Positions 44,279-50,260 of a stretch of DNA of 64,000 nt are shown here, piece after piece. Location of the stretch: contig JAEETX010000001.1 in the NCBI GenBank assembly GCA_016286665.1, positions 61,080 through 125,079 on the forward strand, read 5' to 3'. The DNA comes from Oscillospiraceae bacterium (GTDB taxonomy: Bacteria > Bacillota > Clostridia > Oscillospirales > Oscillospiraceae). Position 1 is the stretch's first letter. Each line of letters begins with the position of its first letter. The notes under the pieces were generated by a model. The model was not told the origin of the DNA. It ran no database searches and saw nothing but the letters and a program-made list of their open reading frames with translations. The translations under genes and the position numbers were made by a program.

Positions 44279-44974
44279 GTGCCCGAAAAGATATTCACCA
44301 TCCCCATCAACGAAGCCTTTGACGTCCTCGACGGCTGCCCCCTCTGCCGCATGCGGGAGAAGCTGGAGGAGCAGACGCTGGAAAGCGCCCTGGGCGCCGC
44401 CATGATGGAGCCCGCCATCCGCATCGAAATGAACCGGGAGGGCTTCTGCAGCCCCCATCTCCTGGCGATGCACCGCAAAAAGAACAAGCTGGCCCTGGGG
44501 CTCATCCTGGAAAGCCGCCTGGACGAGCTGGCCGGCCTGCTGGGAGAGCCCGCCCGGGGCAAAAAGGGGCTCTTCGGCAAGAAGGACGACAAGGGCGACG
44601 CTGCCGAGACCCTGACGGCGCAGGCCAAAAGCTGCTATGCCTGCAAGCGCATCCGAAACACGGAGGTCCGCTACTGCTCCAACACGGCCTGGCTGTGGGA
44701 CAGCGACGAAGCCTTTCGCGGCAAGCTGACGCGGCAGCCCTATTTCTGCCTCACCCACGCCGCCATGCTGCTGCGCGTGGCGAAGGAGGAGCTGAAGGAG
44801 AAATCCTATGCTTCGCTGTATGCGGCGGTCACGGGGCAGCTGCGGGACGCCCTGACCCGGCTGCGGCAGGACGTGACGGGCTTCACCGTCAGCTTCGACC
44901 ACCGCAACGCGGACAAGCCCCTCACGGAGGCGGAGCGAAGCTCCCTGGAACGAGCGACGAAAATGCTGCGATGA
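44279..44974 (+). CDS. DUF6062-like Cys-containing protein
   Basis: CPLCRMREKLEEQTLE, FCSPHLLAMH, CYACKRI, YFCLTHAAML; GTG start behind GAAGGAG. Confidence 0.7.
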   Translation: MPEKIFTIPINEAFDVLDGCPLCRMREKLEEQTLESALGAAMMEPAIRIEMNREGFCSPHLLAMHRKKNKLALGLILESRLDELAGLLGEPARGKKGLFGKKDDKGDAAETLTAQAKSCYACKRIRNTEVRYCSNTAWLWDSDEAFRGKLTRQPYFCLTHAAMLLRVAKEELKEKSYASLYAAVTGQLRDALTRLRQDVTGFTVSFDHRNADKPLTEAERSSLERATKMLR

Positions 44975-45031
44975 TCCGGTCCGCCCCGCCTTGCGGGCGC
45001 CGGCGGGCCAGGGGTATGAAAAACGAAAGAA

Positions 45032-45075
45032 CGGAGCCGGCTCCTGATTTTTCCGTCAGCCGGCTCCGCTTTTTG
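45032..45075. terminator. Rho-independent terminator
   Basis: CGGAGCCGGCT ... AGCCGGCTCCG CTTTTT. Confidence 0.75.
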
Positions 45076-45174
45076 CGTTGCGTTTCGCGGAATTTCGGAA
45101 AAAAACGGAAAAATCCGGCGGCCTGTGTCCAAAATCGGCGTTCTCCATCGTAATAAGGAAGGAGGGGGATGCTT

Positions 45175-45693
45175 ATGCTGATCTATTTGCAGACGATCGA
45201 AACCGACGAGGACAAATCGAAATTCGAGCAGCTTTATATGACGTACCGCGCCTTGCTCATGCATCTGGCTTTTCGGCGGCTGGGAAATGCGCAGGACGCG
45301 GAGGACGCCGTACACAAGGTCTATGTGAAAATCGCGGAGAAAATCAAGATCATCGAACCGGCCGGTCCAAAAACGAAGAAGCTCGTCGTAATTATGGTTG
45401 AGAACACGGTGACCGATATGCTGCGGGAACGGGGGAAGCATCCGGCGGTCCCCCTTACCGAAGAACCGGCGTCCGGGGAGCAGCTGCCCGCCGGGGAAAA
45501 CCTGCTGGAAGACTGCATCCTAAGGCTGCCGGAGAAGCAGCGGGCGGTGATATGGCTGAAGTATCACCACGGATACAGCCTTCGGGAAATCGCCGGATTG
45601 CTGGGCATCACGCTCTCCTGGGCGCAGAAGCTGGACCAGCGGGCAAAGAACAAGCTGGAGGAACTCTACCGGGAAGGAGGCGGAAATCTATGA
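45175..45693 (+). CDS. ECF-like sigma-70 family RNA polymerase sigma factor
   Basis: NAQDAEDAVHKVYVKIAEKI...LRLPEKQRAVIWLKYHHGYSLREIAGLLGITLSWAQKLDQRAKNKL; start 45169 or 45175. Confidence 0.88.
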   Translation: MLIYLQTIETDEDKSKFEQLYMTYRALLMHLAFRRLGNAQDAEDAVHKVYVKIAEKIKIIEPAGPKTKKLVVIMVENTVTDMLRERGKHPAVPLTEEPASGEQLPAGENLLEDCILRLPEKQRAVIWLKYHHGYSLREIAGLLGITLSWAQKLDQRAKNKLEELYREGGGNL

Positions 45694-46367
45694 TTCCGGA
45701 AGAATGGTTATGTGCGGCGGCCGCAGGGTCCTGCGAAGCTTATGTATCGCAGCTGACGGCGGATTTCGACGCCGGGGAAAGCTTCGTGTTTTCCAACGCG
45801 TTTGAAAAGAAGATCGAAAAGCTGAAACGGAGAGCGGACCACCCGGTCCTTTACCGGACCGTGCGCCGGGCGGCGGCCTTCCTGCTGGCGATCCTTTTCG
45901 CCGGAATGGTCTGGATCAGCGTTGATGCTGACGCCAGGGCTGTGTTCTTTGGATGGTTCAATGAAGTAATCGGTAATAGTTTTGTGTATCATCACAACGA
46001 GAGCGCCAATGGGAATACCAAGCCAGTTGATTACCGGCCTTTATGGATTCCCGATGGGTATTCTGAAAATACGGTCAATGTGTTCGTTGACGAAACGACC
46101 GTATTGTACAAAAGCGAAGCTAAAGGTTATTTGAGATTTAGCTATATAATTAGTCTGGAGAAAAGGACATGGTATTTAGACATAACGGATGCAGACATAA
46201 AGGATTGCTGTGTTAATGCACAGCCTGCCCAACTGTTCATTTCAAAACTTGACAGTGTCGCGAGCGGAATAACATGGACAACAGAAGATTCTGTATTTTT
46301 AATTACGGGATTTGTGACTGAAGCTGAGCTAATACGTATGGCTGAAAGCGTAGAAGAAATACATTAG
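45690..46367 (+). CDS. Anti-sigma-factor-like membrane protein with DUF4367-like C-terminal domain
   Basis: Overlaps the sigma gene stop (ATGA); TM AAFLLAILFAGMVWISV; C-term DYRPLWIPDGYSENTVNVF...VFLITGFVTEAELIRMAESVEEIH. Confidence 0.78.
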   Translation: MIPEEWLCAAAAGSCEAYVSQLTADFDAGESFVFSNAFEKKIEKLKRRADHPVLYRTVRRAAAFLLAILFAGMVWISVDADARAVFFGWFNEVIGNSFVYHHNESANGNTKPVDYRPLWIPDGYSENTVNVFVDETTVLYKSEAKGYLRFSYIISLEKRTWYLDITDADIKDCCVNAQPAQLFISKLDSVASGITWTTEDSVFLITGFVTEAELIRMAESVEEIH

Positions 46368-46420
46368 TAATTTACAAATCATGAGCAGATTATAGGCTTT
46401 GAATATTCGGAGGTTATACT

Positions 46421-46777
46421 ATGTCGATCAAAAACACATATTCAACTTCAATCAGAATGGTAGCACTTTTCCTAATACTAATTATGAGCATGTCTTTTCC
46501 GGCTTCTGCCCTTGATGGCAGCACTAAAGAAATGTATAATTCGGTAGACATTATGCTGTCTGAGTTAAACGAAGAGTACGGCACTGACTTTCACATACTG
46601 TCTGCTGATGAAATGAAAAGCTTTGGGTTAGATAAATACTACGATGTAGATAAATATGGATTGACTAAAGAATGGACAGAGCAAGAACTCTTGCAATTGG
46701 AAAAGACTCTTCGATATGTTGCCGAAATCAAAATCCCTGAATATGAGATTCGTTCACAACAAGCACATTTCTCGTGA
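46421..46777 (+). CDS. Small secreted hypothetical protein, AT-rich, C-terminus probably truncated
   Basis: Signal peptide MVALFLILIMSMSFPASALD; low GC relative to window; last residues run out of frame into the displaced DUF4367 tail. Confidence 0.5.
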   Translation: MSIKNTYSTSIRMVALFLILIMSMSFPASALDGSTKEMYNSVDIMLSELNEEYGTDFHILSADEMKSFGLDKYYDVDKYGLTKEWTEQELLQLEKTLRYVAEIKIPEYEIRSQQAHFS

Positions 46778-46875
46778 CCGGCTTCATCAGCGAAGAAGAC
46801 CTGCTCCGAATGGCCGAAAGCGTCAATGAAAGCCCTTCAAGCCCGTTGGTTTTCGGACAAGGTGATACAAAGTGA
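46765..46875 (+). pseudogene. Displaced C-terminal fragment of a DUF4367/anti-sigma protein
   Basis: Frame starting 46765: TFLVTGFISEEDLLRMAESVNESPSSPLVFGQGDTK*, matching VFLITGFVTEAELIRMAESVEEIH of 45690-46367; no start codon/RBS of its own. Confidence 0.8.
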
Positions 46876-46903
46876 TATGCAGAACCAAGGAAGGAGAAAG
46901 AGA

Positions 46904-48613
46904 ATGAAGAAACGGGTTGTGAGCATGTTGATCGTATTCCTTTTGACGCTGCCTCTCCTGCCGGCAGCGGCGGCGGGCCGGGTGATGGTGTCCCGCCAGA
47001 GCCTGCGGGTGGACGGGAAAGCAATCGCCTGCCAAAAATACAACATCGACGACCGCAACTATTTTATGCTCCGCGACCTGGCCATGCTGCTCAGCGGCAG
47101 CGGGAGCCAATTTTCCGTACGCTGGGACGAGGAAAAGAAATGCGTCGTCATCGTCACCGGAGAAGCCTATACCCCGGACGGAAGCGAGCTGGACATGACC
47201 CTGGGAGACCAAAGCGCAACGGCTGTCAGCAGCAGCCAGTCCATCTACATTGACGGCGAGCTGCGGACAGATCTGACGGTATATAACATCGGCGGCCACA
47301 ACTATTTCCAGCTCAAGGAGCTGGGAGCCGCCCTGGGCTTTTTCGTCGACTACGATCAACCCTCCAATACCGCCATCATCATTGCCAGGGCCTTCTCCGA
47401 ACCTACCCCCTGGACGGTGCAGGAGGAAACGGTCGTCGATGAAAAAGGACAGGGCGGATTTCACACCGTCAGCACCTTCGACGCTTCCGGGCGCCTCCTC
47501 TCCCGCAGGGAGGAAACGGCGTGGTCCGTTCTGACAGAGACCCGGACCTATGACGAGCTCGGCCGAACCATAGAGGAAGTCCGGCTCAGCGAAGACCGGG
47601 AAACCGGGGAGCTTCTTTATAGGGAGAGCTTTACCTGGGAATACGACCGGTGGGGAAATCTCACGAAGGAGACCACGGACGACGGAGACGCCCGGACGGA
47701 GCTGGTCTATACCTATGACGACCGGGGAAATCTCATCCGGAAATGGCAGGGGGATACCGGTTCTGAATTTGCCTATGACGAGCGGGGAAACCTCATCCGT
47801 CAGACCACTGTCAGCGCGGACGGTTTCCTGATCGTCACGGCGTACGAGCGGGACGAGGCGGGACATGTGCTGGAGGAACGGACGCTGAAGGACGGGAAGG
47901 AAACCAGTTCTGCCGCCTACACCTGGGAGGGCGACCTCTGCCTGCGGCAGGTCGAAACCAATGCCGGCGGTGAAACGGTGCGGGAATATACCTATGACGA
48001 AGCGGGAAACCTGATCCGGACCGAAACGATCTTCCCGGAAAGGACAGAATGGGAGACCTTCTCTTATGACGAAGCGGGGCGGCTCCTGCGGCGGGAATAC
48101 CGCGGCGGCGTATATGACTGGGGCGAAGCATATACCCTCTACACCTGCCGGTATGACGACGCCGGTCATCCTCTGCAGGAAACCTATGCCGCCTCCGGGG
48201 GCGATACCTGGACCGCTGAATATGCCTACAATGAAGATGGTGATCCGGTGCGGATATACAGGACAGAATGGACGGTGCACATTTCCGAGACCGTCATTTC
48301 CGAGACCGTCATTACCTACGATGCGGACGCCGGGAAAAAGACCAGCGTTACCACCCGCAGCCTGGCTCCTGCGGATCGCCTGGTGTTCCCGGAGACGGAG
48401 CTGACCCTGGAGGTGGGGCAGACGTATGATCTCGGCTTTTATTTCGAGCCCCAGGGCGCTTATGCGCCGCTCCTGACCTGGACCAGCAGCGATCCGTCGG
48501 TGGTGACGGCGGAGGATTTCGGCAAGCTCACCGCCCTGGCCCCCGGGGAAGCCATCGTGACCGCCGCCAGCGCAAGCGGACTGACCGCCAGCTGCAAGGT
48601 TACCGTGGAATAA
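46904..48613 (+). CDS. Secreted copper-amine-oxidase-N-like + YD/RHS-repeat + Big2 (Ig-like) protein
   Basis: Signal peptide; VDGKAIACQKYNIDDRNYFMLRDLAMLL / YNIGGHNYFQLKELGAALGFFVDYD; YDERGNLIR, YDEAGNLIR, YDEAGRLLR YD repeats; C-term TWTSSDPSVVTAEDFGKLTALAPGEAIVTAAS. Confidence 0.85.
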   Translation: MKKRVVSMLIVFLLTLPLLPAAAAGRVMVSRQSLRVDGKAIACQKYNIDDRNYFMLRDLAMLLSGSGSQFSVRWDEEKKCVVIVTGEAYTPDGSELDMTLGDQSATAVSSSQSIYIDGELRTDLTVYNIGGHNYFQLKELGAALGFFVDYDQPSNTAIIIARAFSEPTPWTVQEETVVDEKGQGGFHTVSTFDASGRLLSRREETAWSVLTETRTYDELGRTIEEVRLSEDRETGELLYRESFTWEYDRWGNLTKETTDDGDARTELVYTYDDRGNLIRKWQGDTGSEFAYDERGNLIRQTTVSADGFLIVTAYERDEAGHVLEERTLKDGKETSSAAYTWEGDLCLRQVETNAGGETVREYTYDEAGNLIRTETIFPERTEWETFSYDEAGRLLRREYRGGVYDWGEAYTLYTCRYDDAGHPLQETYAASGGDTWTAEYAYNEDGDPVRIYRTEWTVHISETVISETVITYDADAGKKTSVTTRSLAPADRLVFPETELTLEVGQTYDLGFYFEPQGAYAPLLTWTSSDPSVVTAEDFGKLTALAPGEAIVTAASASGLTASCKVTVE

Positions 48614-48630
48614 GGAAAACGGAGGGGACC

Positions 48631-49758
48631 TCATTCCGCTTTCTCCGAATTTTCGGCGGGATCCGGCATCCGCAGGACGCTCTCCTCCCATTTTTCCAGC
48701 CTTATACGAAGCCGCAGCTTTTGAAAAACCCACGCCCGCACCGAATCGACGGCGAAGCACAGCAGATAGACCGCGGCAGCGGCCCCGACCGCCAAGAGGG
48801 GGAAAGCGCAAACCGGCGCATCCGCAAATCCCTTCAGGACCCCCGGACGAAACCAGAAGGTCCAGACCAAGGGATTCGTATGCAGGATATAGACGCCGAA
48901 GGAGGCACCGGACAAACGGCCCAGAAGCTGCCGGAGCTTTGAGGAGCGCACCTCCAGACGACGCAGAAGAAACAGCAGGCTGACGGCGGAGAGCAGCACC
49001 GTCGGCGAAGTATAGTTCAGCGGAGAAAGCGTTCCGAGCCTGGGAATGGAAACAGGGAAAACGACGGTCAGCAGAAAGGTAAGCGCCGTGCACAGGAAAA
49101 AGGCAGAAGCCAGCCAGCCCGGAGCGATCCTTTTTAGAATCCCGCCTTTGTTCAGAAGCAGGCCCAGGGCGTACAGCACGATCAGCCAGAGGGCAGAATA
49201 ACCACCCCTCAGGTGGAAGGGGTCCGTGCAAAAGATGGTCGGCAAAACGCAGAAAACGAGAACAAGCAAGGCTGCCATCAGGCGCGCCGTTCTCGCGGTA
49301 ATGCTTCGCATTCCCCCATGGATGACCGGCGCCAACAGCGACAGAGCGAAAAATGCCGTAAAGTACCAGTATTGGCGGCGCATGACCGGGAAAAGCGCAT
49401 TCAGCAGTTCCCTTTTCCCGGCATATTCGTGGGAAATGAGGCGAAAGACGCAGGCAAAAGTCACCGAATAGAAAACGACCTCGAGCCACAGCAGCACGAT
49501 CTTGCTGTGCCTGTATCGCTTGCGGGCCGCGCTTACATAGCCGGACAGCAGGCCATAGCAATCCACCGCACAGTAGCAGATGCATTCCAGCGCCCATGCT
49601 AGGTAATAGTGCTTGCTGCCGGAAACCGTGCCGTCCAGGATCCCGCCCTGGCCCAGATTGTGCAGAAGGATCACCATCAGCATGGAAAGGATCCGCAGAA
49701 GATCCAGGCCTATGATCCTTTCCCCGGCCAAAGCGGAATCGTTTGTCGGATTTTCCAT
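48631..49758 (-). CDS. Acyltransferase 3 family membrane protein
   Basis: RIIGLDLLRILSMLMVILLHNLGQGGIL...; ~10 TM segments; LSGASFGVYILHTNPLVW. Confidence 0.87.
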   Translation of the reverse strand: MENPTNDSALAGERIIGLDLLRILSMLMVILLHNLGQGGILDGTVSGSKHYYLAWALECICYCAVDCYGLLSGYVSAARKRYRHSKIVLLWLEVVFYSVTFACVFRLISHEYAGKRELLNALFPVMRRQYWYFTAFFALSLLAPVIHGGMRSITARTARLMAALLVLVFCVLPTIFCTDPFHLRGGYSALWLIVLYALGLLLNKGGILKRIAPGWLASAFFLCTALTFLLTVVFPVSIPRLGTLSPLNYTSPTVLLSAVSLLFLLRRLEVRSSKLRQLLGRLSGASFGVYILHTNPLVWTFWFRPGVLKGFADAPVCAFPLLAVGAAAAVYLLCFAVDSVRAWVFQKLRLRIRLEKWEESVLRMPDPAENSEKAE

Positions 49759-49897
49759 TTGCCGTCACCGCCTATGCTTCCTATTCTTCCCGTTCTAATC
49801 ACTAATACGAAGCAAAAAGGCACTTTTGGACATGGTTTCCGGGTTTTCCGGCAGCAGACGCCGGACCCGGCATTTGATCGGAAAGTGAGGAAAGAAC

Positions 49898-50173
49898 ATG
49901 TGGGCTTTCTTTGGAATCGCCGCGATCGCAGCAGCGGTTTTGAACCTTGTCGCAGGCACGAATGGAAACGAGACGAAATACTATCGCTTCGCAAGCCTGT
50001 CCCTGACCGCCTTGACCGTGTGCGCATGGTACAGCGACGGCGCGAGAAGGGTCGAGGGCGAATCCTGGAGCACCCTGATGGACATCATGCCGACGATGTC
50101 AAAGGTGCTGTGGGTATGCGTGATCCTGTCCATCCTCATCAACGGCATCACCCTTCTGAAAAAGAGAAAATAG
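49898..50173 (+). CDS. 91-aa membrane protein, unknown
   Basis: Three hydrophobic segments; SD GAGGAAAGAAC before ATG. Confidence 0.6.
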   Translation: MWAFFGIAAIAAAVLNLVAGTNGNETKYYRFASLSLTALTVCAWYSDGARRVEGESWSTLMDIMPTMSKVLWVCVILSILINGITLLKKRK

Positions 50174-50260
50174 ATATCTCCCTGCTGCCCGTGACCGACG
50201 GCTGCCGCCGCTGTATAGATTTCCCGGAATAAGGCCGCCCGATACGCAGACAATAGGAGC

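Follow-up and report, generated by a model that had tools for sequence, protein, structure and literature searches.

Polymorphic toxin, Rhs and CDI loci, as well as T6SS arrays, share a constant 5' part, an exchangeable 3' module with a downstream gene, and remnants that are shifted downstream. For the T6SS effector-immunity arrays of Vibrio cholerae, homology-facilitated illegitimate recombination has been proposed to account for displaced 3' remnants, and plain homologous replacement, which leaves no remnant, is considered the more frequent event (PMC5361080). Among anti-sigma factors, RsiV binds lysozyme with its extracytoplasmic part, and its juxtamembrane helix acts as the switch (PMC6066255). 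In the open full-text library, no paper that mentions DUF4367 by name has been found, and a broader search of open full text for the exchange of anti-sigma sensor modules has returned nothing on point. The parts of the locus described here are of known kinds; exchange and displacement of sensor modules in the DUF4367 anti-sigma family seem to be undescribed.

The locus lies in a stretch of 64 kb (the window) from a gut Oscillospiraceae draft genome of 2.86 Mb, which comprises 140 contigs, is 83% complete and is probably a metagenome assembly (MAG). Its features are collected in Table 1. The small ORF and the tail behind the anti-sigma gene invite comparison with the systems above. A remnant shifted downstream is common to both; a constant 5' part followed by a 3' module that is exchanged along with the gene behind it has its parallel in relatives of the locus, and remnant-free replacement appears to be commoner in DUF4367 loci, too. 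Unlike in polymorphic toxin loci, a regulatory protein's sensor takes the place of the toxin as the module, an immunity gene is missing, and the remnant is a non-functional tail. The initial annotation had likened the locus to the displaced tails of polymorphic toxins, which is apt for a downstream remnant in the same orientation and does not extend to a toxin C-terminus with its cognate immunity gene, since the C-terminus is a DUF4367 sensor and the small ORF opens with a signal-peptide-like segment. With RsiV and other DUF4179 anti-sigmas the protein shares an outside sensor, a membrane helix and, judged by position, a putative switch made of a juxtamembrane amphipathic helix and cleavage site; it has no DUF4179 match up to E 1, and the likeness concerns this layout. 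Its nearest kin are other Oscillospiraceae DUF4367 (PF14285) anti-sigmas, which likewise have a sigma gene upstream, a single membrane helix, a DUF4367 C-terminus and a small secreted gene behind, and from which it differs by the tail of a second DUF4367 after the cargo and by an orphan cargo in place of a DUF6147-like gene.

Table 1. Features of the DUF4367 anti-sigma locus (positions are those of the window).
Feature	Position	Strand	Evidence or remark
Accessory block, 5.3 kb, containing the sigma to RHS/Big_2 genes	44971..50254	.	absent from G001
ECF sigma factor, 174 aa	45169..45693	+	Sigma70_r2 and r4_2 domains
Anti-sigma gene, 225 aa, intact	45690..46367	+	DUF4367 (PF14285)
N-terminal half of the anti-sigma, with the cytoplasmic part predicted to bind sigma, the membrane helix and a juxtamembrane helix that ends in DADARAVFFGWFNE	45690..45965	+	
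Left junction (composition break; exchange points of relatives at the same site)	45934..45967	+	change-point CI
Present DUF4367 sensor domain, intact, AT-rich	45966..46367	+	PF14285 match, GC3, AlphaFold2 model
Small secreted orphan ORF, 118 aa, cargo position	46421..46777	+	signal-peptide-like start
Right junction, small ORF/displaced tail	46753..46765	+	HMM homology from 46759
Displaced tail, a second DUF4367 reduced to its final strand and C-terminal helix, with a 14-residue extension; no ATG	46765..46875	+	
Secreted protein, copper-amine-oxidase-N-like, YD/RHS and Big_2 domains	46904..48613	+	RHS_repeat E 4e-17, Big_2 E 5e-10

The sigma gene lies directly upstream of the anti-sigma gene and overlaps its start by 4 bases, and its product is 60-65% identical to the sigma of six relatives (L085, L015, L084, L004, L088 and L089). 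With its C-terminal DUF4367 and the overlapping ECF sigma gene, the window protein fits a DUF4367-type membrane anti-sigma, for which binding and inhibition of the sigma are predicted. The flanks of the accessory block are 79-83% identical to contig C41 of G001, the one same-genus genome that spans both of them, and are just 657 bp apart there; as the block is missing, no orthologous uninterrupted anti-sigma can be read in that genome. A G001 anti-sigma (L013) has been rejected as a counterpart and assigned to another system, its N-terminus being just 30% similar and DUF4367 being absent; at 1228-1770 of this locus, a short low-complexity extracytoplasmic part replaces the domain behind the similar N-terminus. 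The start of the RHS/Big_2 gene has been read off the sequence, and its product may be the cargo of an older unit. The copper-amine-oxidase-N-like segment of this gene (46965-47404) has many 65-71% identical copies in the same genome and in the genus, which form a family of secreted proteins with a repeated N-terminus and a variable remainder.

The present anti-sigma is intact. DUF4367 is matched by residues 114-221 (E 9e-12, 45.9 bits at a cut-off of 22.1), and the AlphaFold2 model (mean pLDDT 84) has helices at residues 52-78 and 80-87, followed by a well-modelled beta domain with pLDDT mostly above 90 and its first strand at 89. The junction, like the exchange points of relatives described below, falls between the second helix and this strand, and the displaced tail maps to the final strand and C-terminal helix of the modelled domain. 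The best PDB fold matches of the model, RseB/MucB, are too weak to be usable as membership (E 6e-3, TM-score ~0.31), and no sequence similarity of the window anti-sigma to RseB/MucB has been found. The initial annotation had described a GC-rich start with a sharp drop near 45,950, and a two-change-point fit has borne this out: its left edge falls in codon 86 of the anti-sigma, at 45945 (CI 45934-45967, codons 82-93). The ~1 kb after the break has a GC of 0.396, the lowest in the 64 kb, with 0 of 6300 segments of equal length as low. GC is 0.59 in the anti-sigma N-terminus, 0.40 in its C-terminus, 0.37 in the small ORF, 0.51 in the tail and 0.59 in the next gene; GC3 falls from 0.68 in the N-terminal half to 0.36 in the sensor domain. 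The composition had also been said to recover exactly at 46765. The tail is less AT-rich as stated, but at 0.51 its GC is intermediate, the recovery is gradual, and the fitted right edge at 46912-46957 is too blunt to fix the position of the junction.

The frame at 46765 had been recognized as a homologue of the anti-sigma C-terminus, and three tests have confirmed this. The tail at 46765-46830, TFLVTGFISEEDLLRMAESVNE, is a same-strand remnant downstream of the anti-sigma and is identical at 14 of 22 positions to the present C-terminus, VFLITGFVTEAELIRMAESVEE; the BLOSUM score of this match is 78, with 28 as the next best among 127,864 placements in the window. An HMM of the C-terminus scores the tail at 20.8 bits (E 5.9e-6) and, outside complete domains and the relic in L021/L094, nothing else above 2.8 bits. 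In the HMM of the whole domain the tail covers positions 103-126 of 128 (E 0.0097) and is the only second match in the 64 kb. In-frame homology may start slightly upstream, at 46755 (TTSTFLVTG). The nucleotide differences between tail and present C-terminus are distributed over the codon positions as 6/3/15, and this concentration at third positions points to two coding sequences that have diverged under selection. GC3 is 13/21 in the tail against 4/21 in the homologous present codons (p=0.011), the tail codons being closer to the composition of the host. The tail is also more similar to the present C-terminus than to that of any relative, as is expected for two versions of one gene. A start codon and RBS had been denied to it; neither an ATG nor an obvious RBS is present, but a GTG at 46774 makes the former statement not literally correct. 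This GTG shares bases with the stop codon of the small ORF, a TGA (GTGA, 46774-46777), an arrangement by which a 33-residue tail peptide could be translationally coupled. No second DUF4367 has been found in the host assembly, and the tail 24-mer has no match in viral contigs. An allele that joins the N-terminus to a GC-rich C-terminus ending FLVTGFISEEDLLRMAESVNE has been found neither in the same genome nor in the genomes of other species searched, the same-genus one included. The neighbouring CAO/RHS paralogues have been ruled out as the source of the tail, as none of five examined has an upstream anti-sigma tail.

The composition itself says little about an exchange. The AT-rich C-terminus had been taken for a foreign cassette partly on this ground, yet in 42 of 53 distinct loci, window included, the N-terminal half has a higher GC3 than the C-terminal one (Wilcoxon p=1e-7), and GC3 falls at the same place, from the end of the membrane segment (~codon 90) onward, in genomes of quite different GC. 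The drop in the window is the 8th largest of the 53, and a full-length AT-rich C-terminus without a tail is the family norm; relatives with such an ancestral-type C-terminus had been named as the finding that would speak against a swap, and this half of the counter-case is what the 42 loci provide. The relative with the most similar N-terminus (L084, 53% identity) carries, in a GC-rich host, an AT-rich sensor and small gene in front of DNA with a GC of 0.53-0.70, and has no tail. A GC-rich sensor also occurs, in some GC-rich relatives (L088 and L089), and shows that a locus need not have the drop. Candidate causes of the drop include recurrent import and codon selection. As the drop is family-wide, it neither dates nor proves an event in the window, and composition has been rejected as proof of a swap. 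The trees do not mark the C-terminus as foreign either: in the tree of sigma plus N-terminus as in that of the C-terminus, the window stands among L084, L015 (L087), L004 (the Flavonifractor sp. An112 locus, L086) and L085. The order of these is the same in both, and the position of the window is weakly supported (69/48 and 73/61, respectively). When taxon set and alignment are changed, the C-terminus of the window comes nearest to L088/L089 and L015 (81/25). The trees give no sign of a donor outside this clade, and leave room for an exchange within it.

In relatives, the exchange of sensor domains at the juxtamembrane boundary is directly visible at the DNA level, so that the proposed C-terminal swap is a real process in this family even though the compositional argument for the window fails. 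The alignment of L101 (Colidextribacter sp. OB.20) with L019 covers 642 bp of sigma and anti-sigma N-terminus at 92% identity and ends there; the maximum-likelihood break is at codon 94 (CI 93-94), with a nucleotide identity of 93% before and 55% after it, and the C-termini beyond are 37% identical. The break between L101 and L020 lies at codon 91 (89-95), and those of L016/L030 and L021/L030 lie at codon 85; some other pairs have weaker breaks elsewhere, or none. The C-termini of L101 and L103 cluster with that of L097 (95/88) instead of that of L019, which conflicts with the tree of sigma and N-terminus. Different C-termini behind one junction, for which the initial annotation had proposed to look, occur in three independent comparisons of relatives, at codons 94, 91 and 85, with which the break in the window coincides; a constant N-terminus with an exchangeable C-terminus at a fixed junction is seen in the relatives, and in the window it is the composition break alone that coincides. 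Between L101 and L103, an identity of 97% persists until 145 bp beyond the anti-sigma stop; the cargo genes that follow differ, and further on a common stretch of 110 bp (97%) returns. These cargo genes (L101 5803-6757, L103 2741-4030) have a short start in common (MFVGQIQAAAHMG) before they diverge, which marks a second exchange point.

Relatives also document how an older sensor is displaced. L022 and L029 have a single sensor domain (N-B), L091 has two (N-A-B), L094 and L021 have N-A with a tail of B, and L016 has N-A. Domain A of L091 is an insert of ~135-140 residues relative to L022 and clusters with L016/L021 (100/100), among the sensors of the window clade (87/90), and domain B clusters with L022/L029 (94/80). 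In L094, which is 82% identical to L091, B has been lost between LPEG/LPED direct repeats, and its tail, LPEDVLVKIAESVE, remains behind the stop. The trees suggest the order N-B, N-A-B, N-A with B tail, and the series indicates that a new sensor can displace an old one, which decays to a tail. Tandem arrays of 4-6 DUF4367 domains have been observed as well, in anti-sigma proteins and neighbouring ORFs (L109 5232-8450, with 8 domains over two ORFs; L023 100-1893; L106 2997-4790; L099 5232-6662). An IMG/VR contig with phage-like genes adjacent (L083 4878-6758) carries two DUF4367 anti-sigmas with an ECF sigma between them, a layout of sensor modules on or beside a prophage.

The small ORF in the cargo position has no family match, and a donor could not be traced through it, as no homologue exists in any of the sets searched (98 relatives, viral contigs, plasmids, phages and GTDB genomes). 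Class-level matches have been weak and spurious (unrelated ClpA-like and 6PGD-like proteins). The four relatives nearest in the C-terminal tree all carry, 58-65 bp behind the anti-sigma, a secreted gene that we take to be DUF6147-like, and the orphan of the window is unrelated to it. Since the small ORF enters the tail and stops at a TGA within, its 3' end may be truncated. At the junctions, a search for repeats or a mobile element has yielded only short imperfect repeats at chance level, such as TCACAACRAG (9/10) at 45992 and 46754; excision between these two has been discarded, as the removal of 762 bp would put the tail out of frame.

We consider the chances evenly balanced that the present sensor and its cargo arrived as a cassette and displaced an older sensor in the window. 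The tail is the end of a true DUF4367, closest to the present C-terminus and with a GC3 of its own, the break falls on known exchange points, relatives provide precedents for exchange and displacement, and the cargo differs from that of the four nearest relatives. Against this reading stand the family-wide GC3 drop, the place of the window C-terminus beside the sigma's relatives (at weak support) the missing allele of N-terminus and GC-rich C-terminus, and the rarity of displaced tails; moreover, the tail in L094 came from the deletion of a tandem second domain and not from a direct swap, and that case offers no parallel for the small ORF that separates sensor and tail in the window. It is less probable, though still a substantial possibility, that the AT-rich C-terminus was always present and that the tail was left by another DUF4367 gene downstream, a second anti-sigma or a sensor ORF, the body of which was deleted; the small ORF may have lost its 3' end in the same deletion. 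An earlier duplication would then be required besides the deletion, and the composition break at known exchange points would become incidental. No second DUF4367 unit is present up to 5 kb downstream in L084, L085, L086 (L004), L087 (L015), L088 or L089, but arrays and paired units are known from L109 and L083, and the third-position divergence of the tail would fit a long separate life as a coding sequence. The family norm of a full-length AT-rich C-terminus and the lack of tree conflict for the window suit a paralogue, and the final step in L094, a deletion between short direct repeats, is the reason why its probability has been kept high. Between the two we favour displacement, at even confidence.

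Two other readings carry little weight. That metagenome assembly inserted an AT-rich stretch of another organism into the contig is very improbable: an incomplete draft in many contigs makes it conceivable, but two junctions would be needed within 0.8 kb, and the left one would have to lead in frame into a domain that is complete, belongs to the expected family and matches the sigma in its place in the tree. We give hardly any credence to the view that no exchange took place, the sensor and cargo being AT-rich for family-wide reasons and the similarity of the tail evolutionarily meaningless. Its compositional half stands, as the drop is common to most loci and larger in seven of them than in the window; for the tail it is largely refuted, the similarity being far above chance both in the placement scores and in the C-terminal HMM.

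Under displacement, the ECF sigma would be bound by the membrane anti-sigma, and the extracytoplasmic DUF4367 domain would be an exchangeable sensor module. An AT-rich sensor with a small secreted cargo gene would have arrived behind the juxtamembrane helix (codon ~86-93) and before the older DUF4367 sensor, which would have been lost except for its last ~22-25 codons, the displaced tail at 46765. The event may have been a one-sided recombination, anchored by homology in the conserved sigma, the N-terminus and the EARAAFxGWxxE stretch and closed on the right by an illegitimate joint; the same appearance would result if a deletion came after an insertion. In the Vibrio arrays, clean replacement is considered commoner than events that leave remnants, which fits the rarity of displaced tails (2 among ~60 distinct loci) despite repeated exchange. 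The sigma-binding half, the membrane helix and the cleavage/helix switch would have been kept, and the ligand-binding half and the cargo replaced. Judged by the roles of the domains and by comparison with RsiV, the sensed signal would have changed.

Somewhat more tentatively, the DUF4367 anti-sigmas of gut Clostridia may form a polymorphic sensor system, in which sigma, sigma-binding half and membrane switch stay fixed, sensor and secreted cargo are exchanged at the juxtamembrane boundary, and new sensors enter ahead of old ones, which persist in tandem or decay to tails, the window holding one such scar. Natural hybrids are at hand in two relatives with a 97% identical locus and a third that is 92% identical up to the break and has a very different sensor. 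If this is true, one recombination event would rewire the input of a stress regulon in gut bacteria and leave the sigma-promoter specificity untouched.
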